From positions 62,001 through 126,000 of the forward strand of contig NZ_JAGQAG010000002.1 of NCBI RefSeq assembly GCF_021405525.1: a DNA stretch of 64,000 bases. The letters are read 5' to 3'. The position numbers and the translations under genes are program-made. Each line of letters starts with the position of its first letter. Within the stretch, counting starts at the first letter, position 1. Under the pieces are notes generated by a model. The model was not told the DNA's origin, did not search any database, and was given only the letters and a program-made list of their open reading frames with translations. Origin of the DNA: Ruegeria pomeroyi (GTDB lineage Bacteria; Pseudomonadota; Alphaproteobacteria; Rhodobacterales; Rhodobacteraceae). Below are positions 5,249 to 45,315 of this stretch, piece after piece.

Positions 5249-5260
5249 GGAGGAAAACAA

Positions 5261-14802: not shown

Positions 14803-14821
14803 CGAAACAGAGGGAGGCGAA

Positions 14822-16010: not shown

Positions 16011-17399
16011 TCAGGCCGCCTGCAGAACTCCGCGCTCGGCTAATTCGTGCTCGAAATCCGCGATGGACTTGGCGAATAGACGCAACAGTTCGTCGGCTTC
16101 TTCGCGTGTCAGCGTCAGAGGCGGCGTCACCATGACCCATTCGCCGAACTTCCCGCCGGCGGTCTTGCGGGTATAGAGCAAGAGCCCATTGTCGATGCCG
16201 ATCTCGAGCAATCGATAGACCGCCCTATGTTCAGCGGGGATCAGGGATTTGGTTACCTTATCGGCAACCAGCTCGACCGCCATGAGCATGCCCTTGCCCC
16301 GCACGTCGCCGATAATCGCGGACTGATCCGCGATCTTGCGCAGGCCCTCCATCAGATAGGCGCCGACATCGCGCGCGTTGGACATAAGGTCCAAGCGCAG
16401 CATCTCGTCGACCACAGCTACCGCCACCGCGCAAGAGAGCGGATTGGCCGAATAGGTGTGCCCATGCAGGAACCCGCCCGAGGCCACGACAGGCTCGACG
16501 ATATAGTTCGGCGCAAGAACCGCAGCCAGCGGGGTATAGCCCGCGGCCACGCCCTTGGCCAAGGTTACCATGTCGGGGCGCGCATCGGGCCAATGCTCGG
16601 CCGACAGGAAAGTGCCGGTGCGGCCGGCGCCGCTCATGACCTCGTCGAAAATCAACAATACGCCATGTTTGGTGCAGATTTCGCGCACGGCCTTGTAGTA
16701 ACAGTCCGGCGCCACAAGCCCGCCGGTGGCAAGGCCGCCGACCGGCTCCATGATGAAGGCCAGCACGTTTTCCGCGCCGACATACGTGATCTGCTGATCC
16801 AACTGGTTGGCACAGTTCATCGCGTGTTCTTCGACACTGACGCCTTGGGGCAGGCGATAGGAAAACGGCGCGGGCACCTTGGGCATGATACGCATCACCG
16901 GTTCGAACACCGCATCCGACTGCGGATCGCCAGTGACTGCCGCAGCGCCCAGCGTTGCGCCATGGTAGCTGGGGTTTCGCGCCAGCACGACGGTGCGTTT
17001 CGCTTCGCCCTTGGTGACGGCGTATTGCCGGGCCAGTTTGATCGCCGATTCCGTCGCCTCCGAACCACTGCCGACCAGGAACGCCTGGTCAAAACCGGGC
17101 CCGGCCAGATCGACCAGTTTTTCCGCAAGGTCGCGGTTGGGCTGGTTTTCGAACACCGCGCGGCTGGCGTAACAGACCTTCGTGGCCTGATCGATCATGG
17201 CCTGCAGAACGCGCGTGTTGCCATGGCCGATGTTGGTGATGACCGGCCCGGATGAAGCATCGAGATACTTCTTGCCCGTGGTGTCCCAGAGGTACGCGCC
17301 CTTGGCATGATCAATCGTCGGCAGATGCCCACGGTTGCCCGAGTAGAACACCTGAATCGGTGAACCGGGTCTCAAGGCGGTTTCTGAGGTGCTGCTCAT
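16011..17399 (-). CDS. Class III PLP aminotransferase (omega-amino-acid type)
   Basis: A 462-residue class III aminotransferase that moves an amino group from a terminal or non-alpha amine to a keto acid. Motifs: YLDASSGPVITNIGHGN near 45, GSGSEATESAIKLARQY near 110, IMEPVGGLATGGLVAP near 216, FDEVMSGAGRTG with Asp252, and the PLP Lys282 in VTLAKGVAAGY. The ATG overlaps the stop of the upstream aminotransferase gene (ATGA) and has AAAGGAC before it. It is the second gene of a two-aminotransferase operon. Its substrate is unknown; the partner gene suggests an amino-aromatic acid or the amino donor or acceptor of that pathway. Confidence 0.8.
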   Translation of the reverse strand: MSSTSETALRPGSPIQVFYSGNRGHLPTIDHAKGAYLWDTTGKKYLDASSGPVITNIGHGNTRVLQAMIDQATKVCYASRAVFENQPNRDLAEKLVDLAGPGFDQAFLVGSGSEATESAIKLARQYAVTKGEAKRTVVLARNPSYHGATLGAAAVTGDPQSDAVFEPVMRIMPKVPAPFSYRLPQGVSVEEHAMNCANQLDQQITYVGAENVLAFIMEPVGGLATGGLVAPDCYYKAVREICTKHGVLLIFDEVMSGAGRTGTFLSAEHWPDARPDMVTLAKGVAAGYTPLAAVLAPNYIVEPVVASGGFLHGHTYSANPLSCAVAVAVVDEMLRLDLMSNARDVGAYLMEGLRKIADQSAIIGDVRGKGMLMAVELVADKVTKSLIPAEHRAVYRLLEIGIDNGLLLYTRKTAGGKFGEWVMVTPPLTLTREEADELLRLFAKSIADFEHELAERGVLQAA

Positions 17400-18730
17400 G
17401 CGGCTTGTCCTTTCAGTTCGCGCCACAGTGGCGCATGTTTGGTCAAAATGTTGCGGAATGCTTCGGCAAAGCGGTCCAGGTCGGCCCGGTTGTGGCAAAC
17501 GTTCAGCGCTATGAGGCCGCGTTTGGCATAGTAGAGCCCGTGAGACAGGAATTCGAAGAACAAGAGGTCCTTGATCTCCTTGTTTTCCAGCGCGACCTGT
17601 TCGGCGAATGTGATCGGTCCCGATTGAGTATGGATGTTCATGATACTGCCAACACCCGTAACGTGGATTGGCGCGCCGGTTTCGATGGCGATATCGTTCA
17701 GGCGGTCGCGGAAGGCATCGCCCATCTTGGTCAGGCGTCGGGCTTCTTGGGTCGTGTAAACCTCTGTCAGCCCGACCAGCCCTGCCCGCATGGTCATGAC
17801 GTTGTTGTTGAAGGTGCCCGCATGTGCCAGCGCATCGGGATGGCGCGGGTCAAAGCGCTCCATGATGTCGTGGCGTCCGCCAAAGACGCCGATCGGCATG
17901 CAGCCGCCGATGAATTTACCCATAGTTGCAATATCGGCCTTAAGTCCCAATACGGGTTGCAGGCCGCCCGCATGATGACGTGCAGTCTGAACCTCATCCA
18001 CGATCAGAAGCGCGCCTTGGCTGCGGCACCAATCTTGCAAGCCGGTCAGGAACGCCTTGTCCCCGGGGATGCAGCCTCCAGCCCCAAGCACGGGTTCGAC
18101 CACGACGGCGGCGATACCCTGGGCATGTGGCTCGATGGTGGCCAGCGTCGTCTCAAGGTCGTTATAACGCCCGTAGAGGAAATCGAACGGTACATTGCCG
18201 ACGCTTGCGCCGCCTACAAAGGTCAGCGGCCCACCGTGGTATCCGCCCTTGAACACCACGATCTTGTCGCGCCCCGTCACGGCGCGCGCAGTGACCATCG
18301 CCATGATGTTAGCCTCGGTGCCTGAGTTGGTTAGGCGCACCTTGTCAAAGCATTCAAAGCGATCACAGATCGCGTCTGCTAGATTGGCTTCGCCTGTGGT
18401 GTGAGATGACAGATTCAATCCATCGCCAATGGCCGCTTGCATCTCGGCCACGATGCGTGGGTGTGAATGGCCATAGACGCCGGATGTGAATTCACTGAGA
18501 AAGTTCAGGTATTTGTGGCCGTCCAGATCCCACAAACTGGCCCCCTCCCCGCGGGCCACGGTTAGTGGGAAGGGGCGGTAAAACAGGCTGCTGCGGGTGT
18601 TCCCTGCGGGCAATGATTGCTCGGCTTTGCGGAACTGGGCTTCACTTTTAGGGTTTGCACGAACGTATTGCGCCTCCGCTTCTGCGAGGGCGCTACGCAG
18701 GTGCTCCGACGATTGCGCTTGTGCGGACAT
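17396..18730 (-). CDS. Class III aminotransferase resembling aromatic beta-amino-acid transaminase
   Basis: A 444-residue fold type I PLP enzyme related to glutamate-1-semialdehyde aminomutase. It follows closely, from memory, the pattern of Variovorax beta-phenylalanine aminotransferase: LFYRPFPLTVARGEGA near 49 with the candidate substrate Arg52, FTSGVYGHSHPRI near 81, GLNLSSHT near 104, LTNSGTEANIMA near 133, VEPVLGAGGCIPGDKAF near 211, Asp245, PLP Lys272 and AHAGTFNNNVMTM. I infer a beta-transaminase that turns a beta-amino acid into the beta-keto acid. The ATG at 18730 has CGGAGAAAG upstream. Its promoter shares the TGTACA palindrome with the divergent CoA-ligase gene. A GSA aminomutase role is unlikely, as there are no tetrapyrrole neighbours. 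Confidence 0.72.
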   Translation of the reverse strand: MSAQAQSSEHLRSALAEAEAQYVRANPKSEAQFRKAEQSLPAGNTRSSLFYRPFPLTVARGEGASLWDLDGHKYLNFLSEFTSGVYGHSHPRIVAEMQAAIGDGLNLSSHTTGEANLADAICDRFECFDKVRLTNSGTEANIMAMVTARAVTGRDKIVVFKGGYHGGPLTFVGGASVGNVPFDFLYGRYNDLETTLATIEPHAQGIAAVVVEPVLGAGGCIPGDKAFLTGLQDWCRSQGALLIVDEVQTARHHAGGLQPVLGLKADIATMGKFIGGCMPIGVFGGRHDIMERFDPRHPDALAHAGTFNNNVMTMRAGLVGLTEVYTTQEARRLTKMGDAFRDRLNDIAIETGAPIHVTGVGSIMNIHTQSGPITFAEQVALENKEIKDLLFFEFLSHGLYYAKRGLIALNVCHNRADLDRFAEAFRNILTKHAPLWRELKGQAA

Positions 18731-18773
18731 GTCTTTCTCCGGTTGGCTGGGAAGTCGGCTGGACAAATTTAAT

Positions 18774-18786
18774 TGTACACTGTACA
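18774..18786. promoter_or_regulatory. Palindromic operator TGTACA-C-TGTACA
   Basis: TGTACACTGTACA lies in the 121-base divergent promoter between the aminotransferase operon and the CoA-ligase operon. Its reverse complement, TGTACAGTGTACA, occurs exactly at 42537-42549, with a 12 of 13 copy at 42551-42563, before an ABC importer operon. I infer a repressor or activator site shared by all three transcripts. Confidence 0.7.
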
Positions 18787-18851
18787 TGGGAATGAAGTTT
18801 TGTCCAGCCGCATCTTCGTGCTGCGTGGAATCGGAGGAGATAAGTGAGCCT

Positions 18852-20660
18852 ATGAGCGAGTTTTTTTTGCCTCAGCGTGTGATCGCAAAGCACCGTGATG
18901 ATGGTGCCCTACTGCTGTCGTCACCATATTCGCTCAGACCTTACTTAAAGCGAACTGGAGATTGGTTGGATCACTGGGCAGCGCATACTCCGAATGCTGT
19001 ATTCGTCGCTGAACGGTCGGGTGAAGGCTGGAATGAGGTGACTTATGCCGAAGCTCGAGAAAAAGTCAGAGCAATCGCGTCATCATTGCTGGATTTGGGT
19101 CTCACCGAAAAAGCTCCGCTTATGCTGCTTTCGGGAAAAAGCGTCGACCACGCATTGCTGGCTCTGGCCGCGCAATACGTTGGCATTCCTTCGGTCGCGA
19201 TTGCCGAACAATACTCTCTGGTCGCAGCTGCGCACAACAAACTTAGGCATGTGGTGGATCTGATTGAGCCAGGCGCGATTTTTGTTCAAATCAGCAAGAA
19301 ATTCGAGGCGGCAATAGGCTCTGGGATTCTTGGGGCGCGGCCAATCATCTCGAATGACGGCGGTACAAAGATCAGCTTTTCGGACTTGCTGTCGGGCGGC
19401 TCCAGTCACGTAGACGCCGCCAAAGCAGGCGTTGGTGCGGATACCGTCGCGAAGTACTTGTTTACTTCCGGGTCTACGTCGATGCCCAAAGCGGTCATCA
19501 CGACCCACGGCATGCTGACGGCGAACCAGATGCAACGCTCCATGGCTTGGCCTTTTCTGGCAGACGCCCCACCGCGCATGGTCGACTGGCTACCCTGGAA
19601 CCACGGTGCAGGTGGCAGCGCCAACTTCAACATGATGCTGGCCAATGGGGGAGCTCTGTACATCGATGACGGCGGGCCGTCCGAAAAAGGCATTGCACGC
19701 TCGATCGAGAATATCAGAATGGCGGGGCAGACAATTTGCGCCAGTGTGCCGATTGGACTGTCGATGATGACTGAGGCTATGCGAACAGACAAGGTGTTCC
19801 GCAGGGAGTTCTTCAGGGATCTGTCGCTTGTGTATTATGCGGCGGCGTCCATGCCTCAAATGGTTTGGGACGAACTCAAGCAACATGCGATGGACGAGAT
19901 TGGCCGCGTGCCGGAAATGTCGGCGGGTTGGGGGTTAACGGAAACAGCACCGTCCGCGTTCATCGTTCAGAAAAGAATGAACCATGCGGGAATGATTGGC
20001 GTTCCGTTGCCGGGGATGGATGCAAAACTCATTCCGACAATCGATGGGGCCTACGAAATTCGGGTGAAGGGGCCAAATATTACGCCTGGCTATTTGAACG
20101 CGCCTGAAAAGACCGCCGAAGCATTCGATGAAGAGGGCTATCTGATAACAGGCGATGCCGTCCGCTTTATTGATGAGAACAACCCAGATGAAGGGTTGGC
20201 CTTTGAAGGGCGGCTGTCGGAAGATTTCAAGATGTCGACTGGCACATTCGTTCAGGCCACAAAGGTGCGTGCTACTGCCGTGAGCGCAATGAGCAATGTC
20301 GTTGCCGATCTGGTGATCTGCGGCCATGGGCGCGATGAGCTTGGCGCGCTCGCCTTCGTCAAACCGGATTTCCTGGCGCAGCTGGAAGATGGCTCCCGGA
20401 CAGACGGGGATGGCGTGCTGAACCACCCCGAACTGCTGGATGCCATGTCTGCCGCAATGAAGCGGCTGGCTGAGGGCGGTGCGGGGTCGTCGATGCGGAT
20501 CATGCGCATGCTGGCGTTGGAAGAACCCGCTTCTCTATCAGAAGGCGAGACTACAGACAAAGGCAACCTGAATCAGAAACTGTTGCTCAAGACCCGTGCC
20601 AGATGGGTTGAACGTCTTTATGACGATGCGGATCTATCGGTCGCGCATCTGAACGGGTGA
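18852..20660 (+). CDS. Feruloyl-CoA-synthetase-like aromatic acid:CoA ligase
   Basis: Activates a carboxylic acid with ATP and CoA. The 602-residue protein follows feruloyl-CoA synthetases: LFTSGSTSMPKAVITTHGML as the P-loop near 210, VDWLPWNHGAGGSANFN near 260, GWGLTETAPSA near 365, NITPGYLNAPEKTAEAFDEE near 420, and GRLSEDFKMSTGTFVQ with the adenylate Asp near 465. The C-terminal Lys motif reads KGNLNQKLLLKTR. In the P-loop, the usual TGMPKGV is SMPKAV. The ATG at 18852 follows GGAGGAG by 12 bases; an earlier ATG overlaps the operator. It is first in an operon with the thiolase-fold and DUF35 genes. Substrate likely aromatic C6-C3 acid, by inference. Confidence 0.78.
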   Translation: MSEFFLPQRVIAKHRDDGALLLSSPYSLRPYLKRTGDWLDHWAAHTPNAVFVAERSGEGWNEVTYAEAREKVRAIASSLLDLGLTEKAPLMLLSGKSVDHALLALAAQYVGIPSVAIAEQYSLVAAAHNKLRHVVDLIEPGAIFVQISKKFEAAIGSGILGARPIISNDGGTKISFSDLLSGGSSHVDAAKAGVGADTVAKYLFTSGSTSMPKAVITTHGMLTANQMQRSMAWPFLADAPPRMVDWLPWNHGAGGSANFNMMLANGGALYIDDGGPSEKGIARSIENIRMAGQTICASVPIGLSMMTEAMRTDKVFRREFFRDLSLVYYAAASMPQMVWDELKQHAMDEIGRVPEMSAGWGLTETAPSAFIVQKRMNHAGMIGVPLPGMDAKLIPTIDGAYEIRVKGPNITPGYLNAPEKTAEAFDEEGYLITGDAVRFIDENNPDEGLAFEGRLSEDFKMSTGTFVQATKVRATAVSAMSNVVADLVICGHGRDELGALAFVKPDFLAQLEDGSRTDGDGVLNHPELLDAMSAAMKRLAEGGAGSSMRIMRMLALEEPASLSEGETTDKGNLNQKLLLKTRARWVERLYDDADLSVAHLNG

Positions 20661-20669
20661 GGACTGGAT

Positions 20670-21854
20670 ATGAGCCTGAAAAACAAAGCCTATATCGTAG
20701 GTGCTTATGAACATCCGACCCGTGATGCGGCTGGCATCCCATTGGCTCGGCTGCATGCAGAGGTAGCGGCGGGCGCCCTGGCCGACGCCGGACTGACGAT
20801 CGCCGATGTCGACGGTTACTTTTGCGGCGGAGACGTCGCCGGATGGGAGGCGCCGGGTGTCGGTCCGTTCTCGATCATCGAATACCTGGGTCTGAACCTG
20901 CGCCACCTGGACACGACAGAGAGCTGGGGGTCGTCATATATCAACCACGTTGCTCATGCAGTGCAGGCGATCGAGGCGGGCAAATGCCGTGTTGCGCTGA
21001 TCACCCAGGCGGGACGTCCGCGTGCAGATCGCAAAACACCGGAAAGTGATCACCAGGGCCAACGTCAGACCGCCTTTGAGGCGCCGTTCGAGCTACCCTA
21101 CAATGCCGTGGTGACAAACATGTATGGCATGGTCGCACAGCGCCACATGTATGAACACGGTACGACATCGGAGCAGCTTGCCTGGGTCAAAGTCGCCGCT
21201 TCACATCACGCCCAACATAATCCGAATGCCAAGTTGCGCGATGTGGTGACGGTCGAAGATGTTGTGAACTCGCCGTCAGTGTCCTCGCCGCTGCGCCGCC
21301 TGGATTGTTGCATCATCAGCGATGGCGGCGGTGCTTTGGTTGTGGTGCACCCAGATGTAGCAAAATCGCTGGACCGTCCCTTGATCACACCGACCGGCGC
21401 GGGATTCAATGTCAAACACCTGAATGGCGGGTACTTCGATATTCTGGCCTCGGGCGGCGTGAAATCGGGGGCCGAGGCCTTTGCTGAAGCCGGTGTCACG
21501 CCGCAAGACATACAATACGCTTCTATCTATGATAGCTTTACGATCACGGTCCTGGTGCAGTTGGAAAACCTTGGGTTCTGCGAGCCGGGGCAGGGTGGAC
21601 GCTTTGTGGCTGATGGCAACCTGATTTCAGGGGTGGGTCGCTTGCCGGTGAATACCGACGGAGGAGGCCTGTGTAGCAACCACCCCGGCAACCGGGGCGG
21701 CATGACCAAGATGATCGAGGCCGTGCGCCAATTGCGCGGCGAAGCGCACCCGGCGGTGCAAGTGCCGGATTGCCACTTGGCGTTGGCCCATGGTACCGGC
21801 GGTCAGTTAGGTGGGCGACATGGCAGCGCCACGCTTATCATGGAGAGGGTCTGA
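20670..21854 (+). CDS. Thiolase-fold protein without nucleophilic cysteine (SCP-x/Ltp2-like)
   Basis: A 394-residue protein of the SCP-x/lipid-transfer thiolase family. Family ends are visible: NTDGGGLCSNHPGNRGGM near 328 and LALAHGTGGQLGGRHGS near 370. At the acylation site, where thiolases carry Cys in a CAxG/S context, it reads TTESWGSSYINHV (near 87), so no nucleophilic Cys is present. Steroid-degrading Ltp2-type retro-aldolases also lack this Cys and pair with a DUF35 subunit, as here. The benzoylsuccinyl-CoA thiolase BbsAB also pairs with DUF35. It could therefore cleave a beta-hydroxyacyl-CoA by retro-aldol or a beta-ketoacyl-CoA by thiolysis; the sequence favours the former. Confidence 0.72.
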   Translation: MSLKNKAYIVGAYEHPTRDAAGIPLARLHAEVAAGALADAGLTIADVDGYFCGGDVAGWEAPGVGPFSIIEYLGLNLRHLDTTESWGSSYINHVAHAVQAIEAGKCRVALITQAGRPRADRKTPESDHQGQRQTAFEAPFELPYNAVVTNMYGMVAQRHMYEHGTTSEQLAWVKVAASHHAQHNPNAKLRDVVTVEDVVNSPSVSSPLRRLDCCIISDGGGALVVVHPDVAKSLDRPLITPTGAGFNVKHLNGGYFDILASGGVKSGAEAFAEAGVTPQDIQYASIYDSFTITVLVQLENLGFCEPGQGGRFVADGNLISGVGRLPVNTDGGGLCSNHPGNRGGMTKMIEAVRQLRGEAHPAVQVPDCHLALAHGTGGQLGGRHGSATLIMERV

Positions 21855-21855
21855 T

Positions 21856-22254
21856 ATGACAGAGTCCAAACTTCCCACATCCCCAGTCGTGACCGAAGAT
21901 ACAGCCTATTTCTGGCAGGCCGCCAACGAAGGGCGGTTGCTGCTCAAACACTGTCTTGGCAGCGGTCAGGCCTTTTACCCGCCGCGCGAGATCAGCCCCT
22001 TTACGGGGTTGGCCAAAACCGAATGGCGTGATGCTTGCGGGAGAGGGACAGTCTATTCCTTCAGTGTCACGCAACGGCACGGATCTGAGCACTGCATCGC
22101 CTATGTTCAACTTGTCGAAGGCCCGATCGTCCTGAGTGCCCTGACCGACTGTGATTTCGACAAAGTACAGATCGGTCAGCCCGTCCGCGTGGTTTTTGTT
22201 GCCACCGCCAACGGGCAATTGGTTCCCATGTTTACACCGCAAAAAGCCAAATAG
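21856..22254 (+). CDS. DUF35 OB-fold protein with degenerate zinc ribbon
   Basis: A 132-residue partner of the preceding thiolase-fold protein, of the Zn-ribbon plus OB-fold (DUF35/ChsH2 C-terminal, BbsA) type. The usual four-cysteine rubredoxin-like knuckle before the YPPR motif reduces to HCLGSGQAFYPPREISPFTG, with one Cys only, so zinc binding is probably lost. The OB-fold part is intact in outline (GRGTVYSFSVTQ, then VQLVEGPIVLSALTDCDFD). The ATG at 21856 follows GGAGAGGG and the thiolase stop by one base. Such proteins act as CoA-ester channel or structural subunits of thiolases and aldolases. Confidence 0.75.
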   Translation: MTESKLPTSPVVTEDTAYFWQAANEGRLLLKHCLGSGQAFYPPREISPFTGLAKTEWRDACGRGTVYSFSVTQRHGSEHCIAYVQLVEGPIVLSALTDCDFDKVQIGQPVRVVFVATANGQLVPMFTPQKAK

Positions 22255-22274
22255 GATCAGTCGTATCTGAGCAA

Positions 22275-22309
22275 GAGAAAGCTCCACCGCTTCTGGAGGC
22301 GCTTTTCTC
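22275..22309 (+). terminator. Probable terminator of the CoA-ligase operon
   Basis: GAGAAAGC pairs with GCTTTTCTC and inside it TCCA with TGGA, giving an interrupted stem 20 bases after the DUF35 stop, with the T-run in the 3' arm. Confidence 0.45.
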
Positions 22310-22790
22310 ATAATCGCTCGCACGCAGGTCAAATAGAGGCCCGGTCTAACATCGCTGCCACCCGTCAAGTTAATCAACAATGACTCGAATGGACATATCG
22401 AACCCGGATTCCAGCGGCGGCGATGCGCCGTTCTTCCAGCGCTTGATATGGGACTGGTTTTCCATGGATGCCAGATTGCGTATGGTCGTTGGAAAGCGTT
22501 CTGCTTCCATGCCCTTTATCGAGGATTTCAGAGTGTCCGACTAGGCATCGCGAGCATATTTGGGGTCGACGCTAACTCTTGCGCTAAATATGACTGTGGG
22601 CCACTCACGGTTTGCCAGTGGTTCGGACACCTTAGTAGCAGCTGTGTTTCAGGCATACTTATTCCTGAGGGGAAAACGAGCCCGCGTTATCGCGTTGAAA
22701 ACCGCTTTCGGCTGCCGCTGCAGGCTAATATGGCCGAAACTCGACCCGGTCCGCTCGTACAACGCTAAAGGGCCGCCTCTCGGACTGGAA
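22310..22790. other. Gene-poor stretch between DUF35 gene and pobA
   Basis: No convincing gene. A 54-codon frame starts at 22380 (MTRMDISNPDSSGGDAPFF) and ends at 22544 without a ribosome site or any family I recognise. Larger frames at 22448-22823 look like random coding with many Arg, Leu and Ser codons. The composition is lower in GC than the neighbours. It may be a decayed gene that I cannot identify. Confidence 0.4.
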
Positions 22791-22811
22791 CGAGGCGCCA
22801 ATGGCGCCTCG
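22791..22811. terminator. Perfect 9-base hairpin downstream of pobA
   Basis: CGAGGCGCC and GGCGCCTCG flank an AAT loop, 28 bases past the pobA stop. The plus side continues into a T-rich stretch (CTTATTCTTT), so it may end transcription from both directions, although pobA is on the minus strand. Confidence 0.55.
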
Positions 22812-22838
22812 CTTATTCTTTGAACCTGAGCGGTACGA

Positions 22839-24017
22839 TCAGAAGGGCAGCCCCACGTAGTTTTCCGCCAAGGAGGTCAGCGCCGCTTCGGAAGAGAACA
22901 AGTATTGCAGATCCGTCTGTTGCAGCTTCTGATCATAGGCGATGCTGTCGGGGAAAGTGTGCAGAAGGGTGGTCATCCACCAACTGAACCTCTGTGCCTT
23001 CCAGATCCGGGCAAGAGCCTTTTCGCTGTAGTTATCGAGGCCGGTATCGTCACCCTTTTCATAGTGATCGACCAGTGCATGGTAGAGGTAGTAGATGTCG
23101 CTTGCAGCGGAGTTCAGTCCGCGCGCACCGGTCGGCGGGACGATATGCGCGGCGTCTCCTGCCAGGAACATATTCCCATAGCGCATCGGTTCGGCAACGA
23201 AACTACGCAAGGGGGCGATGCTTTTCTCAATCGAGGGACCCGTTTCCAGCGCGTTGGCGACATCGTCGGGCAGCCGCTTCTTCAGCTCATCCCAGAACGC
23301 GTCGTCTGACCAGTCTTCGACGCTGTCTGTCAGGGGAACTTGAATGTAGTAGCGGCTCAAGACCTGGCTGCGCAGCGAACACAGTGCAAAACCGCGGTCG
23401 CTTTTTGCGTAGACGAGTTCGGGCGACACCGGTTTGGTACGGCTCAGAACGCCGAGCCATCCGAAGGGATAGACCTTTTCGTATTCCCGCAGAACATCCG
23501 AGGGGATCGACTTGCGGCTGACACCGTGGAACCCGTCTGCTCCAATGATGTAGTCGCAATCGATGCGAATGACGTCATCGCCGCTGCGATAGGTGATATG
23601 CGGAGCGTCAGACTTCAAGTCATGCAGCTTGACGTCTTCGACATTGTGAATGACCTTGCCATTCAATTTGGCGCGGGCCTCGTAAAGGTCGCGGGTGAGT
23701 TCCGTTTGGCCGTACACGACAACCGAATTCCCACCAGTGTGTGCGGCCAGGTCCACGCGGCGTTTCTTGTTGCCTTCAGCGACGTAGAAGCCTTCGTGAA
23801 TCTCGCCTTCGGCATCCATCCGTTCGCCACATTGGGCTTCGCGCATCAACTCAGCAAACCCGTGTTCCAGCACGCCCGCCCGAATGCGTCCAAGCACGTA
23901 TTCTCTGCTGTGCTTTTCGAGAACGATGTTGTCGATGCCCTTCAGATGCAGCAGCTGGCTCAACATTAGGCCCGAAGGCCCGCCGCCGATGATCCCGACC
24001 TGAGTTTTCGTGTTCAT
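22839..24017 (-). CDS. pobA: 4-Hydroxybenzoate 3-monooxygenase
   Basis: Hydroxylates 4-hydroxybenzoate to protocatechuate with NAD(P)H and oxygen. The 392-residue flavoprotein has the length of the Pseudomonas enzyme. FAD motifs are GIIGGGPSGLML near 8, CDYIIGADGFHGVSR near 150 and MFLAGDAAHIVPPTGARGLN near 280. The substrate pocket pattern VYAKSDRGFALCSLRS-QVLSRYY keeps the Tyr, Ser, Arg and Tyr that bind 4-hydroxybenzoate, and the ENYVGLPF end keeps the active-site Tyr. The ATG at 24017 has GGAAG upstream. It is divergent from a PobR-type regulator and feeds the protocatechuate genes from 25 kb onward. Confidence 0.95.
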   Translation of the reverse strand: MNTKTQVGIIGGGPSGLMLSQLLHLKGIDNIVLEKHSREYVLGRIRAGVLEHGFAELMREAQCGERMDAEGEIHEGFYVAEGNKKRRVDLAAHTGGNSVVVYGQTELTRDLYEARAKLNGKVIHNVEDVKLHDLKSDAPHITYRSGDDVIRIDCDYIIGADGFHGVSRKSIPSDVLREYEKVYPFGWLGVLSRTKPVSPELVYAKSDRGFALCSLRSQVLSRYYIQVPLTDSVEDWSDDAFWDELKKRLPDDVANALETGPSIEKSIAPLRSFVAEPMRYGNMFLAGDAAHIVPPTGARGLNSAASDIYYLYHALVDHYEKGDDTGLDNYSEKALARIWKAQRFSWWMTTLLHTFPDSIAYDQKLQQTDLQYLFSSEAALTSLAENYVGLPF

Positions 24018-24070: not shown

Positions 24071-24955
24071 ATGGACATTTTGACGAATAAATGGCACATA
24101 TCGAACATGCACAGCATTGAGAATTTCAATCTTTATGGTGAGGCGGGGAACTTCCCTGATGTTGTGCATTGCGAAACCATAGAAGCGCGGTCAGTGATCC
24201 ATGATTGGGAATTCCAGCCGCATCGACATGCTCGACTTCATCAGTGGTTGTTGCTCGAAAGCGGTGTTGGCCAGGTCCTCCTGGAGGAAGAGCGCCATCC
24301 TCTAAATGAACGGGCACTTGTGAATATCCCTGCTGGCTGCGTGCACGGGTTTAATTTTGAGCCCCGGACTAAGGGCTGGGTCGTAACGCTCGCAGCGGAA
24401 CTTCTAGAGGAGAGTCTTTTGGAAAGCGAGGGGCTTCGTCCTCACCTAATGAAGCCCAAGATATTATTTTACAAAGATGAAATTCAAAGCGCTGTCATGC
24501 AAATATTCTCGGAATACGCGGGCCGCTCATACGCGAGGGCTCATGTACTCAGGGCCTATTCCAGCTTGCTTATGGGATTGGTCGGCCGCGGCATTGCCGA
24601 ATTAGACCCGCAAGAGAGGCAAACGGAACATGGTTTGCAGCGCAGGTTCGAAGCCTTGCTCGACGCACATTTCCTCGACCATTTAGGGGTATCTGACTAT
24701 GCCAAGCTAATGGGCATTACGCCCGCCCATCTAAGTCGGGTGATGCGCGCTGCGACGGGCCGGTCAGCCCTGTCCGCGATCGAGGAACGGATTGTCCGTG
24801 AGGCGCGAAGAAACTTGGCATTTTCGAACATCAGTATTTCGGAGATTTCCTATCAACTAGGCTATGTGGATCCCACCTACTTCAGCCGAGTTTTCAAGCG
24901 CGCGACGGGACAGTCGCCGCGCGCGTTCAGGAAACGCCTTGAGGAGCGGCCCTAG
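24071..24955 (+). CDS. pobR: AraC-family regulator of pobA
   Basis: A 294-residue activator with an N-terminal cupin sensor (WEFQPHRHARLHQWLLLESG near 46, ALVNIPAGCVHGFNFEP near 83). Two C-terminal HTH motifs lie around residues 200-290 (GVSDYAKLMGITPAHLSRVM and ISEISYQLGYVDPTYFSRVF). It is divergent from pobA with a 53-base gap, the arrangement of AraC-type PobR proteins that respond to 4-hydroxybenzoate. The start is uncertain; an ATG at 24107 is also possible and neither has a clear ribosome site. It is poorer in GC than its neighbours. Its stop overlaps that of ligC by four bases. Confidence 0.82.
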   Translation: MDILTNKWHISNMHSIENFNLYGEAGNFPDVVHCETIEARSVIHDWEFQPHRHARLHQWLLLESGVGQVLLEEERHPLNERALVNIPAGCVHGFNFEPRTKGWVVTLAAELLEESLLESEGLRPHLMKPKILFYKDEIQSAVMQIFSEYAGRSYARAHVLRAYSSLLMGLVGRGIAELDPQERQTEHGLQRRFEALLDAHFLDHLGVSDYAKLMGITPAHLSRVMRAATGRSALSAIEERIVREARRNLAFSNISISEISYQLGYVDPTYFSRVFKRATGQSPRAFRKRLEERP

Positions 24956-25896
24956 AGGAACGAGCGTTCGATCTGGTCGAGTGTTTCCATGGCCTGAATA
25001 ACATCTGTAACGCAACCATTGGGCTTGCGATCCTCGCGGACGGCGGAGATGAATTCGCGGTCGATCAGTTCGATCCCGTTATCGGATACAGCAACGCCAC
25101 TCAGGTCGACCTTCTTGTCGTACCCGTCATAGAGATCGTCATAACGCGCGATATAGGTGCCATTGTCACAGATATAGCGAAAGAATGTGCCCAAAGGGCC
25201 ATCGTTGTTGAACGATAAAGACAGTGTGCAGATAGCCCCATCCTTGGCTTTCATGCCGATCGACATGTCCATGGCGATGCCGAGCTCGGGATGGGCGGGG
25301 CCTTGCAGACCAAAGGCCTGCTCAACTTTGCCGCCGGTTTGATATTGAAACAGGTCCACGGTATGACACGCGTGATGCCAAAGCAGATGATCGGTCCAGC
25401 TGCGGGGTTCTCCCTTTGCATTGGTGTTAGAGCGTCGGAAGAAGTAGGTCTGCACGTCCATCTGCTGGACCTTCAGCTCGCCTGCGTCGATTTTGTTCTT
25501 GATCCACTGGTGGCTGGGATTGAAGCGGCGGACCTGACCTGCCATGCAAGTCAATCCTGTTTCCTTTTGCTTGGCAACGACGCGCTCACTGTCCTCGAGG
25601 CTGTCTGCCATCGGGATTTCGATCAGTACATGTTTCCCGGCATCCATGCAGGCGATCGCCTGATCCGCGTGCATCTGGGTCGGCGTCGACAAGATTACCG
25701 CATCGACGTCATCGCGTGAGATACACTCCTCCAGCGTGGTCCCGGCGTGACCGATGCCGCGTTCATTGGCCAGTGCCTCGATCTTGGACTTGGTCGGCCC
25801 CATGACCGAAGTGACGGTAACGCCTTCGATATTTGCTATTGCGTCGAGATGTTTCAGACCAAACGCGCCATAAGCGCCTGCCACACAAAGTCTCAT
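24952..25896 (-). CDS. ligC: 4-Carboxy-2-hydroxymuconate-6-semialdehyde dehydrogenase
   Basis: Oxidises the hemiacetal of the protocatechuate 4,5-ring-cleavage product to 2-pyrone-4,6-dicarboxylate with NADP. The 314-residue protein is a Gfo/Idh/MocA-family oxidoreductase of LigC length. The Rossmann start is VAGAYGAFGLKHLDAI, followed by VILSTPTQMHADQAIACMDAGKHVLIE near 80-106 (in parts) and the active-site region WTDHLLWHHACHTVDLFQYQ near 168. I place the start at 25896, where the LigC N-terminus begins and an AGGAAGG lies upstream. It is separated from the other pathway genes by the LysR gene and transcribed away from them. Confidence 0.9.
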   Translation of the reverse strand: MRLCVAGAYGAFGLKHLDAIANIEGVTVTSVMGPTKSKIEALANERGIGHAGTTLEECISRDDVDAVILSTPTQMHADQAIACMDAGKHVLIEIPMADSLEDSERVVAKQKETGLTCMAGQVRRFNPSHQWIKNKIDAGELKVQQMDVQTYFFRRSNTNAKGEPRSWTDHLLWHHACHTVDLFQYQTGGKVEQAFGLQGPAHPELGIAMDMSIGMKAKDGAICTLSLSFNNDGPLGTFFRYICDNGTYIARYDDLYDGYDKKVDLSGVAVSDNGIELIDREFISAVREDRKPNGCVTDVIQAMETLDQIERSFL

Positions 25897-26026
25897 GCTC
25901 TTGGGATCCTTCCTGTCTACTTGATGCGCCAGCAAGATGTTTCGGGGAGCATCCCGCCTGACGCTCTTGCGGTGATGGTTCTATCAACCAGCTCCGTAAA
26001 TCGGGAATTCTATTGCGGCGTTTGTC

Positions 26027-27402: not shown

Positions 27403-28137
27403 ATGGCTGACAACAAGACCGCTTTGGTTATCTCCGCTCATGCGGCAGATTTCGTGTGGCGATGCGGGGGCGCGATCGCTCTTCACCAGGAGTTGGGATA
27501 CAATGTCACGGTTGTCTGCCTGTCATATGGCGAACGTGGTGAAAGCGCGCGGCTTTGGAAAGATGGCAAGACCCTGGACGAGGTCAAATCGATCCGGAAA
27601 CGCGAAGCCGAAGCCTCTGCTTCGGCGCTTGGATTGCATGACATCCGCTTTCTCGACATGGGCGACTACCCGCTGCGCTTTTCCGAAGAGGCCGAGAACA
27701 AGGTTGTCGACATCATCCGGGACGTTCAGCCGAAGTTCATGTTTTCGCATTCGAAATGGGATCCCTATAACACCGACCACATGAAAACGACCGATTTTGC
27801 GCTGACCTGTCGCATGATCGCACAGGCCTGGGGGCACAATCCGGGGCAAAAGGTCTTGGGCGCGCCGCAGCTCTACCTTTTCGAACCGCATCAGACCGAA
27901 CAGATGGGCTGGAAGCCGAATGTCTTCCTCGACATCACGCCTGTCTGGGAAAAGAAACGAGCGGCGATGGAATGCATGAACGGGCAGTTGCACCTGTGGG
28001 ATTTCTACACCCGGGTTGCACAGCAGCGTGCCAACCACTTCAAGCGCAACACCGGCGGCATGTCGGGCGGGCGGGACTGCAAATATGCCGAAGGCTTCGA
28101 GACGGTCTTCCCGGTTTGCGTGGATGAACTGTCATGA
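27403..28137 (+). CDS. galB: 4-Oxalomesaconate hydratase, GalB type
   Basis: Hydrates 4-oxalomesaconate to 4-carboxy-4-hydroxy-2-oxoadipate. The 244-residue protein belongs to the PIG-L/LmbE zinc-hydrolase family like Pseudomonas GalB, and not to the amidohydrolase family of Sphingobium LigJ. The zinc motif is [15 protein letters not shown] near 11, with [17 protein letters not shown] near 114 supplying the second His group. The ATG has GAGG upstream. It opens the operon galB-ligK-ligU-ligI-ligA-ligB and overlaps ligK by four bases. Confidence 0.9.
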
Positions 28138-28826
28138 CCTATCCCGTCGGCACCCAAGGCGTCGTGGTCCAAAACATCATGCGTGCTGATCAGTCGGTGA
28201 TTGATGGGTTGGCGGCATGCGGCGTCGCAACGGTTCACGAAGCGCAGGGGCGCAAGGGGCTGCTAGCCTCCTACATGCGCCCAATCTTCTCTGGAGCACG
28301 CGTTGCCGCAAGCGCCGTTACTATCTCTGCACCGCCTTGCGACAACTGGATGATCCATGTCGCGATTGAGCAGATTAAAGCCAACGACATTCTGGTTCTT
28401 GCCCCGACTTCGCCGTCGGATGCCGGCTATTTCGGCGATCTTCTGGCCACCTCGGCCAAGGTGCGCGGGTGCCGGGGCCTGATCATTGATGCCGGTGTCA
28501 GGGACGTGCGGGATCTGACCGAGATGAATTTCCCGGTCTGGTCCAAATGCATCTTCGCTCAAGGCACGATCAAGGAAACGCTGGGGTCGGTGAACGTTCC
28601 GGTGGTCTGCGCCGGTGAACTGGTCCATCCGGGTGACATCATCGTCGCTGATGATGACGGTGTTTGCGTCGTACGCCGGGAAGAGGCGGAGGAGGTTCTG
28701 CAAAAAGCGCAGGCGCGCGAGGCCAACGAAGCCGAAAAGCGCGCGCGGTTCGAAGCTGGAGAACTGGGGCTTGATATCTACAAGATGCGCGATCGACTGG
28801 CTGAGAAGGGGCTGAAATATGTCTAG
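28134..28826 (+). CDS. ligK: 4-Carboxy-4-hydroxy-2-oxoadipate aldolase
   Basis: Cleaves 4-carboxy-4-hydroxy-2-oxoadipate to pyruvate and oxaloacetate, the last step of the pathway. The 230-residue protein is of the RraA-like class II aldolase family (LigK/GalC/ProA). [13 protein letters not shown] lies near 32, [29 protein letters not shown] near 98-123 supplies the metal and Arg/Asp residues, and [16 protein letters not shown] near 164. A Lys/Arg-rich helix closes it. The ATG overlaps the galB stop. The gene could equally be named galC. Confidence 0.9.
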
Positions 28827-29038
28827 TCCAGATCCTGCAGCGATGGAGAGATCAAGGACGCCGGTGTTGCTGGGTCGATGGTCGCGTAACATCACGATGA
28901 GAACCGACACCTTGCCGAATGATCGCGAAGGGTTTCTGTCGCAACTCTTCTCCGATGCTCAGATGACGCATTTCCGTTTTGCCGGATCGCCGAGGCAGGG
29001 CAGCTTCTTAAGCTTTTGCCGGGAAACAGGTGGCTGGC
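28827..29038. other. 212-base gap inside the protocatechuate operon
   Basis: This gap is out of character with the otherwise overlapping operon. It holds a 75-codon frame at 28819-29046 whose ATG overlaps the ligK stop ([19 protein letters not shown]), but the frame matches no family I know and has no ribosome site of its own. It may be the remains of a deleted gene. Confidence 0.4.
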
Positions 29039-30097
29039 ATGTCTGACGGGGTTCGTTGCATGTGGATGCGCGGGGGCACGTCAAAGGGCGGGTATTTCTT
29101 GCGCGAAGACGTTCCCGCAGATGAAGATGCCAGGAACGCCTTTCTTCTTGGGATGATGGGTTCGCCGGATGCCCGGCAAATCGATGGCATGGGGGCGGCG
29201 GATCCGCTGACGTCAAAGGTCGCCATCGTTTCACGTTCGAACCGCGAAGGCGTAGATGTCGATTACCTGTTTTTACAGGTTTTCGTGGATCAGCCAATTG
29301 TCACCGACGCACAGAACTGCGGGAACATCCTGGCAGGGGTCGCACCGTTCGCCATCGAGCGCGGGTTGATCCCGGCCCGCGAAGATGTGACCTCCGTGAC
29401 TATTTTCATGGAGAACACAGGGCAATTGGCCGTCGCGAGGGTAAACACGCCCGATGGCGTCGTCGACTACCGCGGAGAGGCCCGCATCGACGGCGTGCCA
29501 GGAACTTCGGCTCCGGTTCCAATCGAGTTCAAAGATACAGCCGGATCGACCTGTGGGGCATTGCTGCCCACCGGGAATGTTGCGGACGTTGTTAATGGCG
29601 TCGAAGTGACGATGATCGACAATGGCATGCCCTGCGTTGTGATCCGCGCTGCGGACATGGGAATCTCGGGTTCGGAAAGCCCTGAAGAATTGGAGGCCAA
29701 CGCCGACCTGCGCACCCGTCTGGAAGCGCTGCGGCTGGCATGTGGACCACTGATGAACCTTGGTGATGTCTCCGCCAAGTCCGTTCCGAAAATGACCATG
29801 GTCAGCGCCCCACGAGAGGGGGGGGCAATCGCCACGCGCACATTCATTCCCCACCGCTGCCACAAGGCGATCGGTGTGCTTGGCGCGGTCAGTGTTGCCA
29901 CGGCCTGCCTGCTGGAGGGATCGGCCGCGCACGGGCTTGCTGAAAAGGGAACGGGGTCCGAGAGGAGCCTCGCAGTAGAGCACCCAACGGGTGAGATGAC
30001 CGTCGTCGCCACGCTGGATGACGCTGGAGATGTACAGGCAGCGGCGATCCTGCGAACGGCGCGCAAATTGATGGATGGAGAGGTATTCTCTTGGTAG
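29039..30097 (+). CDS. ligU: 4-Oxalomesaconate tautomerase (PrpF family)
   Basis: Shifts the double bond of the keto form of 4-oxalomesaconate so that the hydratase can act (LigU/GalD). The 352-residue PrpF-family protein shows MWMRGGTSKGGYFLREDVP near 8, RQIDGMGAADPLTSKVAIV near 44, NCGNILAGVAPFAIERGLIP near 90, PTGNVADVVNGVEVTMIDNG near 175 and MVSAPREGG near 255. I start at the ATG at 29039 with AGGTGG before it; a GTG three codons upstream is also possible. The stop overlaps the start of ligI. Confidence 0.9.
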   Translation: MSDGVRCMWMRGGTSKGGYFLREDVPADEDARNAFLLGMMGSPDARQIDGMGAADPLTSKVAIVSRSNREGVDVDYLFLQVFVDQPIVTDAQNCGNILAGVAPFAIERGLIPAREDVTSVTIFMENTGQLAVARVNTPDGVVDYRGEARIDGVPGTSAPVPIEFKDTAGSTCGALLPTGNVADVVNGVEVTMIDNGMPCVVIRAADMGISGSESPEELEANADLRTRLEALRLACGPLMNLGDVSAKSVPKMTMVSAPREGGAIATRTFIPHRCHKAIGVLGAVSVATACLLEGSAAHGLAEKGTGSERSLAVEHPTGEMTVVATLDDAGDVQAAAILRTARKLMDGEVFSW

Positions 30098-31408: not shown

Positions 31409-32254
31409 ATGGCCAAGATCCTTGGTGGTATCACCACCTCGCATATCCCTGCCGTCGGCAACGCAATTCAAAATGAACTCTACGATGATCCCTATTGGAA
31501 GCCGTTTTTCGACGGGTATCCCAAGGTTCATGCCTGGATCAAAGAGAAGAAACCCGATGTCGTGATCAACATCTACAATGACCACGGGCTTGGGTTTTTT
31601 CTGGACCAGATGCCGACATTCGCGATCGGTGCCGCAAATGAATACAAGAACGAAGACGAGGGCTGGGGCCTGCCAGAGCTGGATGCGTTTCCCGGGCACT
31701 CGGAACTGAGCTGGCACATCATCGAAAGCATGGTTGCGGACGAATTTGACATTACTTCTTGTCAGGAATTGCCCGTCGATCACGGTTTTGTCGTACCGAT
31801 GCAGCTTTTCTGGCCCGGCGCACCGCATAACGCGGATATGCCTAGGGCTATCCCGATCTCCGCCAATACCGTTCAGCACCCGATTCCAACGCTGAAGCGC
31901 GCGCTCGATTTCGGCAAGGCGCTGAGGAAGGGGATCGAGAGCTTCCCCGAAGATCTGACGGTTGTCGTCCTTGGCACCGGCGGTCTGTCGCACCAGCTGG
32001 ATGGCGAACGGGCCGGTTTCATCAACCGTGAATTCGATGAATACTGCCTCAACAACATCGCCCATAATCCCGAGGAACTGACCAAGATCGGCCGGATGGA
32101 GCTGGTCGAGAAGGCCGGGGCACAGGGAACTGAGTTCTTGATGTGGATGATGATGCGCGGTGCTTTGGGTGACAATGTGACCGAGATCACGCGCAATTAT
32201 CACATCCCGATTTCGAACACCGGCGCAGGGACGCTCTTGCTCGAATGCGCGTAA
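31409..32254 (+). CDS. ligB: Protocatechuate 4,5-dioxygenase beta subunit
   Basis: Catalytic subunit of the class III Fe(II) extradiol dioxygenase. The 281-residue protein begins MAKILGGITTSHIPAVG with iron ligand His12; YNDHGLGFF gives the second His near 59 and the C-terminal Glu ligand is expected around 240 (GTEFLMWMMMRGAL). PVDHGFVVPMQLFWPG near 129 carries the general-base His. It is the last gene of the operon and is followed by a strong terminator. Confidence 0.95.
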   Translation: MAKILGGITTSHIPAVGNAIQNELYDDPYWKPFFDGYPKVHAWIKEKKPDVVINIYNDHGLGFFLDQMPTFAIGAANEYKNEDEGWGLPELDAFPGHSELSWHIIESMVADEFDITSCQELPVDHGFVVPMQLFWPGAPHNADMPRAIPISANTVQHPIPTLKRALDFGKALRKGIESFPEDLTVVVLGTGGLSHQLDGERAGFINREFDEYCLNNIAHNPEELTKIGRMELVEKAGAQGTEFLMWMMMRGALGDNVTEITRNYHIPISNTGAGTLLLECA

Positions 32255-37350: not shown

Positions 37351-38082
37351 TCAGATCCTGTCCGCGAGGCGTTCCAGCCCGAGAATCATCGCCTCGGCAA
37401 ACATGTCAAACCCGTCATCAAGCGGCGCGGTCGTGCCGTTTTCCCAACGCAGAATGAACGCCCTGTTAGTCAGCTCAGGCATCAATGTGGTGGTAGTGGG
37501 AAATTTGGCGGCATCAATGCCTGCGATGGTCGACTGCATTGATTGTTCCCATTCATCCCGATCATCTGAGGGCACCAAGGCGAATTCCTGAGTTGTAAAA
37601 CCTACCATCGCGCCGATCACTGCACTGTAAGCTGCCGGCAGTTTATCGTCGGAGAACCCCGCAGTCCTAAGTACGTCAAGGATGCGCTCTATCATCTCGA
37701 AATCCACGCTTGCATTAGAGACGAGTTGCACGCCTATCATTGGGGCAATGTTCGGATGCTTCTGAATTTGCGTGCGATAGTTGCGAAACAGACTGCGTAG
37801 CCAAGACTTCCAGCCCAAGCTTTCGTCGGTGGGGACGAGGTCGGTTAGTACGGCTGCGATGACTTCACCGATCAGCGCGCTGCGGTTGGGTAGATACCAG
37901 TAGATTGCAGTAGGATAGACGCCGAGCGCCTTGGCTAGGTTTCGCATCGAAAACGCCTCGATGCCGTCACGGTCAATGATCTCGAGTGCCTTTGTGATGA
38001 TCGCTTCCTTGCTGAGAGCAGGACCTCCGTTCTTCTTGGGTTTTCTGCGGGACTTTCGTGGTGGATTGGGAATGGGAAGCAT
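37351..38082 (-). CDS. TetR/AcrR-family regulator with TetR-type C-domain
   Basis: A 243-residue regulator. A basic N-terminal arm (PPRKSRRKPKKNG) leads to the HTH around 25-75 (FSMRNLAKALGVYPTAIYWY). The C-terminal ligand domain about 85-220 is of the TetR_C_1 kind. It lies three bases after the MarR gene on the same strand, so the two are probably co-transcribed. Its target is not evident: the TGTACA palindromes at 18.8 and 42.5 kb and the MarR-type palindrome at 38.7 kb are candidates. Confidence 0.82.
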   Translation of the reverse strand: MLPIPNPPRKSRRKPKKNGGPALSKEAIITKALEIIDRDGIEAFSMRNLAKALGVYPTAIYWYLPNRSALIGEVIAAVLTDLVPTDESLGWKSWLRSLFRNYRTQIQKHPNIAPMIGVQLVSNASVDFEMIERILDVLRTAGFSDDKLPAAYSAVIGAMVGFTTQEFALVPSDDRDEWEQSMQSTIAGIDAAKFPTTTTLMPELTNRAFILRWENGTTAPLDDGFDMFAEAMILGLERLADRI

Positions 38083-42536: not shown

Positions 42537-42563
42537 TGTACAGTGTACATTGTACAGTGTACT
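42537..42563. promoter_or_regulatory. Two tandem TGTACA-G-TGTACA operators before the ABC importer
   Basis: TGTACAGTGTACA at 42537-42549 is followed after one T by TGTACAGTGTACT at 42551-42563, a 14-base repeat. The first copy is the exact reverse complement of the site at 18774-18786 between the aminotransferase and CoA-ligase operons. The pair ends 21 bases before the ATG of the binding-protein gene, a position fit for repression. Confidence 0.75.
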
Positions 42564-43766: not shown

Positions 43767-43780
43767 AATCTGCAACCAAG

Positions 43781-43815
43781 CGAGCACGAGCTAATAAGGC
43801 TCGTGCTCGTTTCCT
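43781..43815 (+). terminator. Hairpin between binding-protein gene and livG
   Basis: CGAGCACGAGC pairs perfectly with GCTCGTGCTCG over 11 bases around TAATAAG, followed by TTTCC. It probably terminates part of the transcription, so that the binding protein is made in excess over the membrane complex. Confidence 0.7.
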
Positions 43816-43831
43816 ATTCAAGCGATAGAGC

Positions 43832-44611
43832 ATGATTGTCGTAGAAAATCTTCACAAGCATTTTGGTGGCGTACGCGCTGTCAACGGCGCCTCTCTGCAG
43901 ATCAGGACTGGCGGAATTACCGGGCTGATCGGACCGAATGGGGCGGGCAAGACCACCCTGTTCAATGTTATTGCGGGCCACCACAAGCCAACCTCCGGCT
44001 TTGTTCATCTCGATGGGCGCGACATCACCGGGCTAGAACCGCATGAGCTGTTCGAGGCAGGGCTATTGCGCACATTCCAATTGGCCCATGAGTTTTCAAC
44101 GCTGACTGTCCGCGAGAACCTGATGATGGTGCCCGATCGGCAGCCGGGCGAAACACTGCTCAACGCTTGGTTCCGTCCCGGCAAAGTCAGGACCCGAGAG
44201 AAGCAGGTACGGGCCAAGGCCGACGAAGTGCTCGAATTCCTCGAAATTACCCATGTCGCGGATGAACTGGCGGGAAACTTGTCTGGAGGGCAGAAAAAAC
44301 TGCTGGAACTTGGGCGCACGATGATGGTGAACGCCCGGGTGGTGTTCCTGGACGAGGTCGGCGCGGGCGTGAACCGGACGCTGCTGAAAACCATCGGCGA
44401 CGCGATCCTGCGCCTGCGCGACGAACGCCACTACACCTTCTGCCTGATCGAACACGACATGGATTTCATCAGCCGGCTTTGTGACCGTGTCATCTGCATG
44501 GCGGAAGGGGCGGTGATGGCCGAGGGGACCGCCGAGGAAATCAAATCCAACGAAGAGGTGATCGAAGCCTATCTGGGCACCGGTCTTAAGAAGAAGAAAG
44601 CGGGCGCATGA
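43832..44611 (+). CDS. livG: ABC transporter ATP-binding protein, LivG type
   Basis: A 259-residue ATPase. Walker A is GPNGAGKTTLFN near 33, the Q-loop region is LLRTFQLAHEFSTLTVRENL near 73, the signature is LSGGQKKLLELGRTMM near 150 and Walker B is ARVVFLDEVGAGV near 169. Where most LivG proteins have DEPxAGL, it has DEVGAGV. It overlaps livF by four bases. Confidence 0.9.
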   Translation: MIVVENLHKHFGGVRAVNGASLQIRTGGITGLIGPNGAGKTTLFNVIAGHHKPTSGFVHLDGRDITGLEPHELFEAGLLRTFQLAHEFSTLTVRENLMMVPDRQPGETLLNAWFRPGKVRTREKQVRAKADEVLEFLEITHVADELAGNLSGGQKKLLELGRTMMVNARVVFLDEVGAGVNRTLLKTIGDAILRLRDERHYTFCLIEHDMDFISRLCDRVICMAEGAVMAEGTAEEIKSNEEVIEAYLGTGLKKKKAGA

Positions 44612-45312: not shown

Positions 45313-45315
45313 GCC

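Follow-up and report, generated by a model that had tools for sequence, protein, structure and literature searches.

A five-gene core on a plasmid-sized element of Ruegeria pomeroyi probably forms, together with a TetR regulator and an importer, a horizontally mobile module under TetR control that would allow growth on a para-hydroxylated aromatic beta-amino acid, most likely (S)-beta-tyrosine; we lean modestly towards this reading. The 64,000 nucleotides analysed (the window) belong to C2, a contig of 167 kb; the genome amounts to 4.51 Mb and is assembled in four contigs. The core (16011-22254) consists of two class III transaminase genes on the reverse strand and, divergent from them, three genes on the forward strand. 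The former encode a second class III aminotransferase (TA2; 16011..17399) and a beta-transaminase of the VpAT/MesAT type (17396..18730), and the latter a feruloyl-CoA-synthase-like coenzyme A (CoA) ligase (18852..20660), a thiolase-fold protein of NCBIfam PRK08142 (20670..21854) and its DUF35/ChsH2-type OB-fold partner (21856..22254; Pfam OB_ChsH2_C). Profile and PDB matches confirmed the places and families that an earlier reading of the sequence alone (the original prediction) had assigned to these genes. The enzyme families, the operator, its regulon partners, the mobility and the linkage to two pobA genes are features of the sequence itself.

In the proposed route, the aromatic beta-amino acid would enter through an ATP-binding cassette (ABC) importer under the shared operator, and the beta-transaminase would convert beta-tyrosine to 4-hydroxybenzoylacetate, with TA2 possibly handling the other enantiomer or a related donor, or recycling the amino group. 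The ligase would form 4-hydroxybenzoylacetyl-CoA ahead of decarboxylation of the unstable beta-keto acid, the thiolase-fold/DUF35 complex would cleave this ester into acetyl-CoA and a 4-hydroxybenzoyl unit, and PobA and then the 4,5-cleavage genes would complete the breakdown. We infer the substrate, the binding of TetR to the operator, the order of transaminase and ligase (transaminase first is assumed), the type of cleavage and the release from CoA. Beta-tyrosine is a best guess that we regard as about evenly poised; it fits best because the linkage to PobA suggests a para-hydroxyl group and because the core and its regulon hold a beta-transaminase and an amino-acid-type ABC importer. In a Paraburkholderia lysate whose beta-phenylalanine transaminase activity is (S)-selective, the relative activity with (S)-beta-tyrosine was 69% (PMC6150868; this and the other PMC-numbered sources are cited from excerpts). 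Beta-tyrosine catabolism to 4-hydroxybenzoate found no description in the open literature searched. The scheme from import to ring cleavage had already been put forward in the original prediction; it gains from the mobility of the core, the two pobA genes, the TetR/operator regulon with its importer and the presence of a BKACE-type gene in place of part of the core in some Burkholderiaceae, whereas plain thiolysis as the cleavage step is not supported.

Mobility of the core and its pobA neighbours

Megablast against 72,556 records, a set that may leave out records very near the window genome, identified a single 6265-base block of 83.8% identity that coincides with the five genes. It is present in three plasmid records of Phaeobacter inhibens, while nine further records matched only pieces of 53 to 695 bases. 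Between the window and P. inhibens pP66_d, the shared block stops at the core edges. The encoded proteins are 95% (thiolase-fold protein), 92% (TA2), 88% (ligase), 86% (beta-transaminase) and 79% (DUF35) identical within the core, and identity outside it is lower, at 65% for PobA, 56% for the TetR regulator beside the P. inhibens core and 54% for USP. The comparison of sequences supports the view that the five-gene core travels as a unit and is horizontally mobile.

In pP66_d the core adjoins pcaQ-pobA-pcaDCHG. In the window it is followed by pobA (22839..24017, reverse strand), encoding 4-hydroxybenzoate 3-monooxygenase (TIGR02360, 682 bits against a cut-off of 539). The predicted adjacency to pobA and protocatechuate genes thus stands, with the correction that the latter form a 4,5-cleavage set. 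Its 4-carboxy-4-hydroxy-2-oxoadipate aldolase (28134..28826; TIGR02798, 387 against 304.5 bits), 4-oxalomesaconate tautomerase (29030..30097; NF033377, 536 against 440 bits) and LigB-type class III extradiol dioxygenase (31409..32254; PRK13364, 446 against 290 bits), all on the forward strand, exceed their cut-offs. The LigC, LigI and GalB roles are assigned by family and context, and the amidohydrolase at 30091 lies under its best cut-off. The second pobA of the genome sits on contig C4 in a pcaQ-pobA-pcaCHG-BKACE set, which is 66-81% identical to the P. inhibens set, and shares 63% identity with the window pobA; the core-linked pobA is therefore an extra copy. Because the core adjoins two different 4-hydroxybenzoate-consuming sets, for 3,4-cleavage in P. 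inhibens and 4,5-cleavage here, its product probably reaches PobA. This adjacency to two different pobA genes, although only two cases, is the best sequence evidence for that step.

Two candidates from these neighbourhoods were discarded. The BKACE gene of pP66_d was ruled out as a core member, as the corresponding gene follows pcaG on contig C4 here, and the Gfo/Idh/MocA oxidoreductase gene (24952..25935, reverse strand) was set aside as a beta-keto reductase, since it fits the 4,5-cleavage set; it is LigC-like by context. Divergent from pobA lies an AraC-type regulator (24107..24955, forward strand), which is PobR-like by position only. A PcaQ-like LysR regulator of 412 amino acids (26038-27276) contains two LysR helix-turn-helix stretches.

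The operator and its regulon

The original prediction had joined the core to an amino-acid-type importer through a shared operator marked by TGTACA. This hexamer occurs 11 times in the window, a count that none of 100 shuffles reached (mean 3.8). Two of the matches (4296 and 6484) are ATGTACA start codons, and we replaced the plain count by the 13-mer TGTACA-N-TGTACA. The window contains three exact copies, one at 18774 and two that overlap each other, at 42537 and 42544. When up to three mismatches were allowed, 13 matches were found against 8.1 expected, and 8 of 100 shuffles reached 13, so that only near-exact 13-mers are informative. In the whole genome, the exact 13-mer occurs at these three positions and inside napA (C1:878820). 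Allowing one mismatch adds three sites, of which one is at 42551 of the window and two are chromosomal; with the pattern read backward as a control, one match was found, compared with seven for the 13-mer with at most one mismatch.

The copy at 18774..18786 (TGTACACTGTACA) lies in the interval from which the beta-transaminase and ligase genes diverge, at a place equivalent to that in P. inhibens. The array at 42537..42563, with the two exact overlapping copies and the one with a mismatch, lies upstream of a branched-chain-amino-acid-type ABC importer with a binding protein, two ATPases and two permeases (42585..47651, forward strand; first ATG at 42585). Both the shared operator and the amino-acid-type importer were thereby corroborated, and the informative form of the motif is the near-exact 13-mer, not plain TGTACA. 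In pP66_d, 13-mers are located at the core promoter, ahead of a LysR gene and ahead of a tripartite tricarboxylate importer unrelated to that of the window. The TetR regulator (37351..38082, reverse strand) is likely the reader of the 13-mer, as their co-occurrence suggests.

An outer inverted repeat, GGCTGGACAAA (18757-18767) and TTTGTCCAGCC (18799-18809), flanks the core operator and is also present in P. inhibens; it is absent from the stretch of the importer promoter that we read. A GNAT acetyltransferase gene of the window (14744-15331) is 60-66% identical to one adjoining an operator copy in pP66_d. Adjacent to TetR in pP66_d is a prephenate-dehydrogenase-like gene with a PDH_N domain (L060 14609-15406), which had no blastp match among the open reading frames of the window.

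For other genera we used 92 beta-transaminase loci (pP66_d included), which are those among the matches listed, as are the counts below, and closer relatives may exist. As longest-reading-frame gene calls are unreliable in GC-rich loci, we identified neighbours with tblastn at E <= 1e-8 and 40% coverage, a search that misses weaker relatives. TetR relatives of 41-56% identity lie beside or within ~4 kb of the beta-transaminase gene in 16 of the 92 loci, including Variovorax, Paraburkholderia, Caballeronia, Bosea, Micavibrio and Salaquimonas. With pP66_d set apart, 15 TetR loci were searched for operator-like sites, defined by at least 10 of 12 bases, and 14 sites appeared in seven of them; Markov sequences gave 1.4 in sum, and the 68 scanned of the 76 loci lacking TetR had 2 sites in 1.0 Mb. 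By their coordinates, 13 of the 14 sites precede the cluster's beta-transaminase, TetR, porin, importer, BKACE-type or hydrolase gene, the sole exception being at 12108 of the Salaquimonas locus L148.

In this Salaquimonas locus, TetR and the beta-transaminase occur together with a class III transaminase and with an importer whose binding protein and permease are 63% and 64% identical to those of the window. In the Paraburkholderia locus L109, the gene order is TetR, beta-transaminase, a TA2 relative, a 4HBT-type thioesterase and a BKACE-type gene. The TA2 relatives are 51% identical and directly after the beta-transaminase gene in L109, and 37% identical and nearby, past TetR, in L148. The L109 thioesterase has 3ck1 as its best PDB match and matches the 4-hydroxybenzoyl-CoA thioesterase 1bvq weakly (E 3e-5); its 68% relative follows the beta-transaminase gene in the Caballeronia locus L110 (PF13279 over cut-off). 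The Paraburkholderia graminis locus L062 has operator-like sites before the beta-transaminase gene, before a porin gene and between a BKACE-type gene and a hydrolase gene. For the BKACE-type proteins of L109 and L062, the nearest family is 3-keto-5-aminohexanoate cleavage enzyme; with pP66_d left aside, BKACE relatives were found in 7 of the remaining 91 loci. The BKACE family acts on beta-keto acids, with activities on 4-hydroxybenzoylacetate among those reported (PMC4922564). The regulon elsewhere fits the same task, because in some Burkholderiaceae a BKACE-type gene stands in place of the ligase, thiolase-fold and DUF35 genes. The hydrolase of L062 (4152-5195), which has the operator-like site in front and is annotated as an aryldialkylphosphatase, starts similarly to a protein of L110 (5202-6263) that is likewise preceded by such a site; these are perhaps amide or lactone hydrolases of the regulon.

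Substrate and cleavage chemistry

The beta-transaminase finds its best PDB matches in the beta-transaminase 6iz9/2yku (E 4e-134) and the beta-phenylalanine aminotransferase 4ao9 (E 3e-126), with the next family following only at E 5e-66. In the alignment, Arg46, Glu80 and Arg404 occupy the positions of R41, E75 and R398 of VpAT. In VpAT, R41 binds the carboxylate and E75 supports it (PMC9850050). The conservation of two carboxylate-binding arginines favours a free acid rather than a CoA ester, the Kat-type substrate. Close relatives are rare: at E <= 1e-140 they were found in 2 of 394 genomes of the family, the own genome counted, and at E 1e-80 in 10 of 248.

A similar module might have another natural substrate, beta-phenylalanine or an aliphatic beta-amino acid, with pobA serving general aromatic catabolism instead of the core product. 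VpAT-type enzymes accept beta-phenylalanine and also aliphatic beta-amino acids (PMC9850050), and the box locus of the genome, with a related ligase (C1:437298, 45%), could use benzoyl-CoA; the box genes, however, lie on a different contig from the core, which adjoins two different pobA genes, and we consider such a substrate improbable. In that box locus (L041; G000:C1:428000-447999), boxA and a benzoate-type regulator exceed their cut-offs, and C1:437298 is a second feruloyl-CoA-synthase-like ligase of the genome.

The core ligase is a PRK12582 relative that scores 621 bits against a cut-off of 777, while its AMP-binding domain reaches 146 against 29.9 bits. AMP-binding ligases of other kinds (25-29% identity) are present in 5 of the 92 loci. 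The thiolase-fold protein scores 680 bits against the PRK08142 cut-off of 462 bits. It departs from canonical thiolases, which have a nucleophilic Cys in their N-terminal half, as Gly87 stands at the position of this Cys in acetyl-CoA acetyltransferase 7yvy. Tyr287, in a YDSF motif, replaces the His of HDxF in 7yvy and BbsB, whereas His338 of the GHP motif is retained. An alignment of 40 rows, in which the window counts twice, shows no variation at Gly87, Tyr287 and His338 and a single Ala in place of Ser289; Trp86 is confined to the window and P. inhibens, with Gly in the other rows. Plain thiolysis is hence not supported.

Compared with the direct partners in L097-L101, which retain the Zn-ribbon cysteines, DUF35 has lost most of these residues in the window as well as in P. 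inhibens and P. koreensis. A PRK08142 relative is present in 75 plasmid records (40 listed), from which eight annotated loci were inspected; all eight have an SDR or 3-hydroxyacyl-CoA dehydrogenase gene nearby, as would be expected ahead of a beta-ketoacyl-CoA substrate. The predicted structure of the thiolase-fold protein alone had a pLDDT of 34. By their fit to this context we rank the cleavage options as thiolysis by an unusual mechanism, then hydrolysis, then retro-aldol cleavage. A PRK08142/DUF35 complex might split aroylacetyl-CoA without a nucleophilic Cys, perhaps hydrolysing it to 4-hydroxybenzoate and acetyl-CoA, and might be tuned to the product of a beta-transaminase in the Phaeobacter-type core (Trp86, lost Zn ribbon); this is a tentative proposal, and a rather doubtful one. 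Hydrolytic cleavage, if true, would explain why no thioesterase is needed. The window has an alpha/beta hydrolase gene (Abhydrolase_3) at 38749, and the chromosome has a candidate thioesterase (C1:3329853), 41% identical to the Paraburkholderia one and unlinked to the core.

Retro-aldol cleavage would involve an outside reductase, followed by splitting in the manner of the steroid side-chain aldolases Ltp2 and Sal into acetyl-CoA and 4-hydroxybenzaldehyde, which an aldehyde dehydrogenase would oxidise to 4-hydroxybenzoate. Those aldolases combine the Tyr of YDxF with Tyr344 (Ltp2) or Cys304 (Sal) as its partner (PMC12329534). The window protein shares their Tyr, the Gly at the Cys position and the DUF35 partner, no thioesterase would be required, hydratase genes lie near PRK08142 in 6 of the 8 loci, and the prephenate-dehydrogenase-like gene of pP66_d could supply the reductase. 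The second residue, however, is His338/Ser289, the core has no reductase, and the dehydrogenases near PRK08142 in all eight loci suggest a keto substrate. The sole aldehyde dehydrogenase among 58 window proteins scanned (62256-63701) is 40 kb off, and none is annotated in 41 kb of pP66_d, where the gene table is incomplete. It would also be roundabout to make a ketone by transamination and then reduce it, and we regard this route as quite unlikely.

It is very improbable that the ligase and thiolase-fold protein serve p-coumarate with the transaminases as unrelated neighbours, since, even if a ligase relative of Phaeobacter sp. G2 (46.5%) is grouped with crotonase, SDR, MarR and amidohydrolase genes, the core has no hydratase or dehydrogenase, one divergent operator region serves the ligase and the beta-transaminase in both core copies, and TetR and the operator accompany the beta-transaminase in other genera.

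Several observations weigh against a module for beta-tyrosine as we propose it. We know the core from only two independent copies, that of the window and the pP66_d type in three plasmid records, and relatives of the ligase, thiolase-fold protein, DUF35 or PobA were found by tblastn in none of the other 91 beta-transaminase loci, some of which are short. Eight of the 15 TetR loci, including all five from Variovorax, show no operator-like site. The BKACE-type proteins of L109 and L062 score 238 and 232 against a cut-off of 382 bits, and the L109 thioesterase lies under its NCBIfam cut-off. In the beta-transaminase, V43 and Y76, which contact the ring in VpAT, correspond to Ser48 and Phe81; of the 92 relatives, 67 have V and 5 have S at position 48, and 67 have Y and 22 have F at position 81. 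Thiolysis by the usual mechanism is unlikely because of the Gly at the nucleophile position and the aldolase-type Tyr, and the hydratase genes near PRK08142 are of a kind that would also be required for an aldol route. The scan of 58 window proteins recognised no thioesterase family, in agreement with the original prediction, which had remarked on its lack. The acceptance of aliphatic substrates by VpAT-type enzymes bears on the choice of substrate as well, and the beta-tyrosine activity is that of a lysate and is tied to no sequence in the excerpt (PMC6150868).

Relation to known pathways

The proposed module shares its first step with beta-phenylalanine degradation in Variovorax and Paraburkholderia, and with Variovorax also the enzyme family (PMC6150868, PMC9850050); in that route the keto acid is reported to decarboxylate, giving acetophenone in substantial amounts (PMC6150868). 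Five Variovorax loci have a TetR relative beside the beta-transaminase gene, whereas none of the seven contains a relative of the window ligase, thiolase-fold protein, DUF35 or PobA. The Aromatoleum acetophenone/ethylbenzene pathway also proceeds from an aroylacetate through its CoA ester to acetyl-CoA and aroyl-CoA, with entry through ketone carboxylation instead of transamination (PMC4729919). Ltp2 and Sal have in common with our system the thiolase fold with DUF35, the missing nucleophilic Cys and the Tyr of YDxF, and differ in the second residue and in the keto substrate suggested by the SDR neighbours of PRK08142 (PMC12329534). BKACE enzymes (DUF849) likewise cleave beta-keto acids and are members of the TetR regulon elsewhere, but they are unrelated proteins that use the free acid and acetyl-CoA as substrates (PMC4922564). 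Kat is a transaminase in a beta-amino acid route too, acting on CoA esters only (PMC3149608), unlike the window enzyme with its two carboxylate-binding arginines. A ligase related to that of the window also occurs in the Fcs-type hydroxycinnamate pathways; these pathways include a hydratase and a dehydrogenase and no transaminase.

Further genes lie upstream of the core. A probable C-terminal Amidohydro_2 remnant (14449-14802) has 65-72% identity over 40 amino acids to proteins in L042-L044 that adjoin feruloyl-CoA-synthase-like genes, the one in L043 being Amidohydro_2. The genes at 585-7448 and 12590-14026 encode a ureidoglycolate lyase, a cupin, a class V aminotransferase, pyridoxal-phosphate-dependent and racemase-type enzymes, an ornithine-cyclodeaminase-type protein and a purine/allantoin-type permease, and look like a ureide catabolism block.

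The five-gene core and its partners might carry the breakdown of aromatic beta-amino acids past the first transamination, a stage for which we found no description in the open literature searched. TetR and the 13-mer operator provide a handle for finding such regulons, and the regulons in other genera suggest two interchangeable ways of cutting an aroylacetate, one by ligase, thiolase-fold protein and DUF35 and the other of the BKACE type. PRK08142 forms a thiolase-fold family whose chemistry cannot be that of a textbook thiolase. With its DUF35 partner, it might be a candidate type for the benzoylacetyl-CoA-cleaving enzyme, the thiolase that was called so far unknown in Aromatoleum (PMC4729919).

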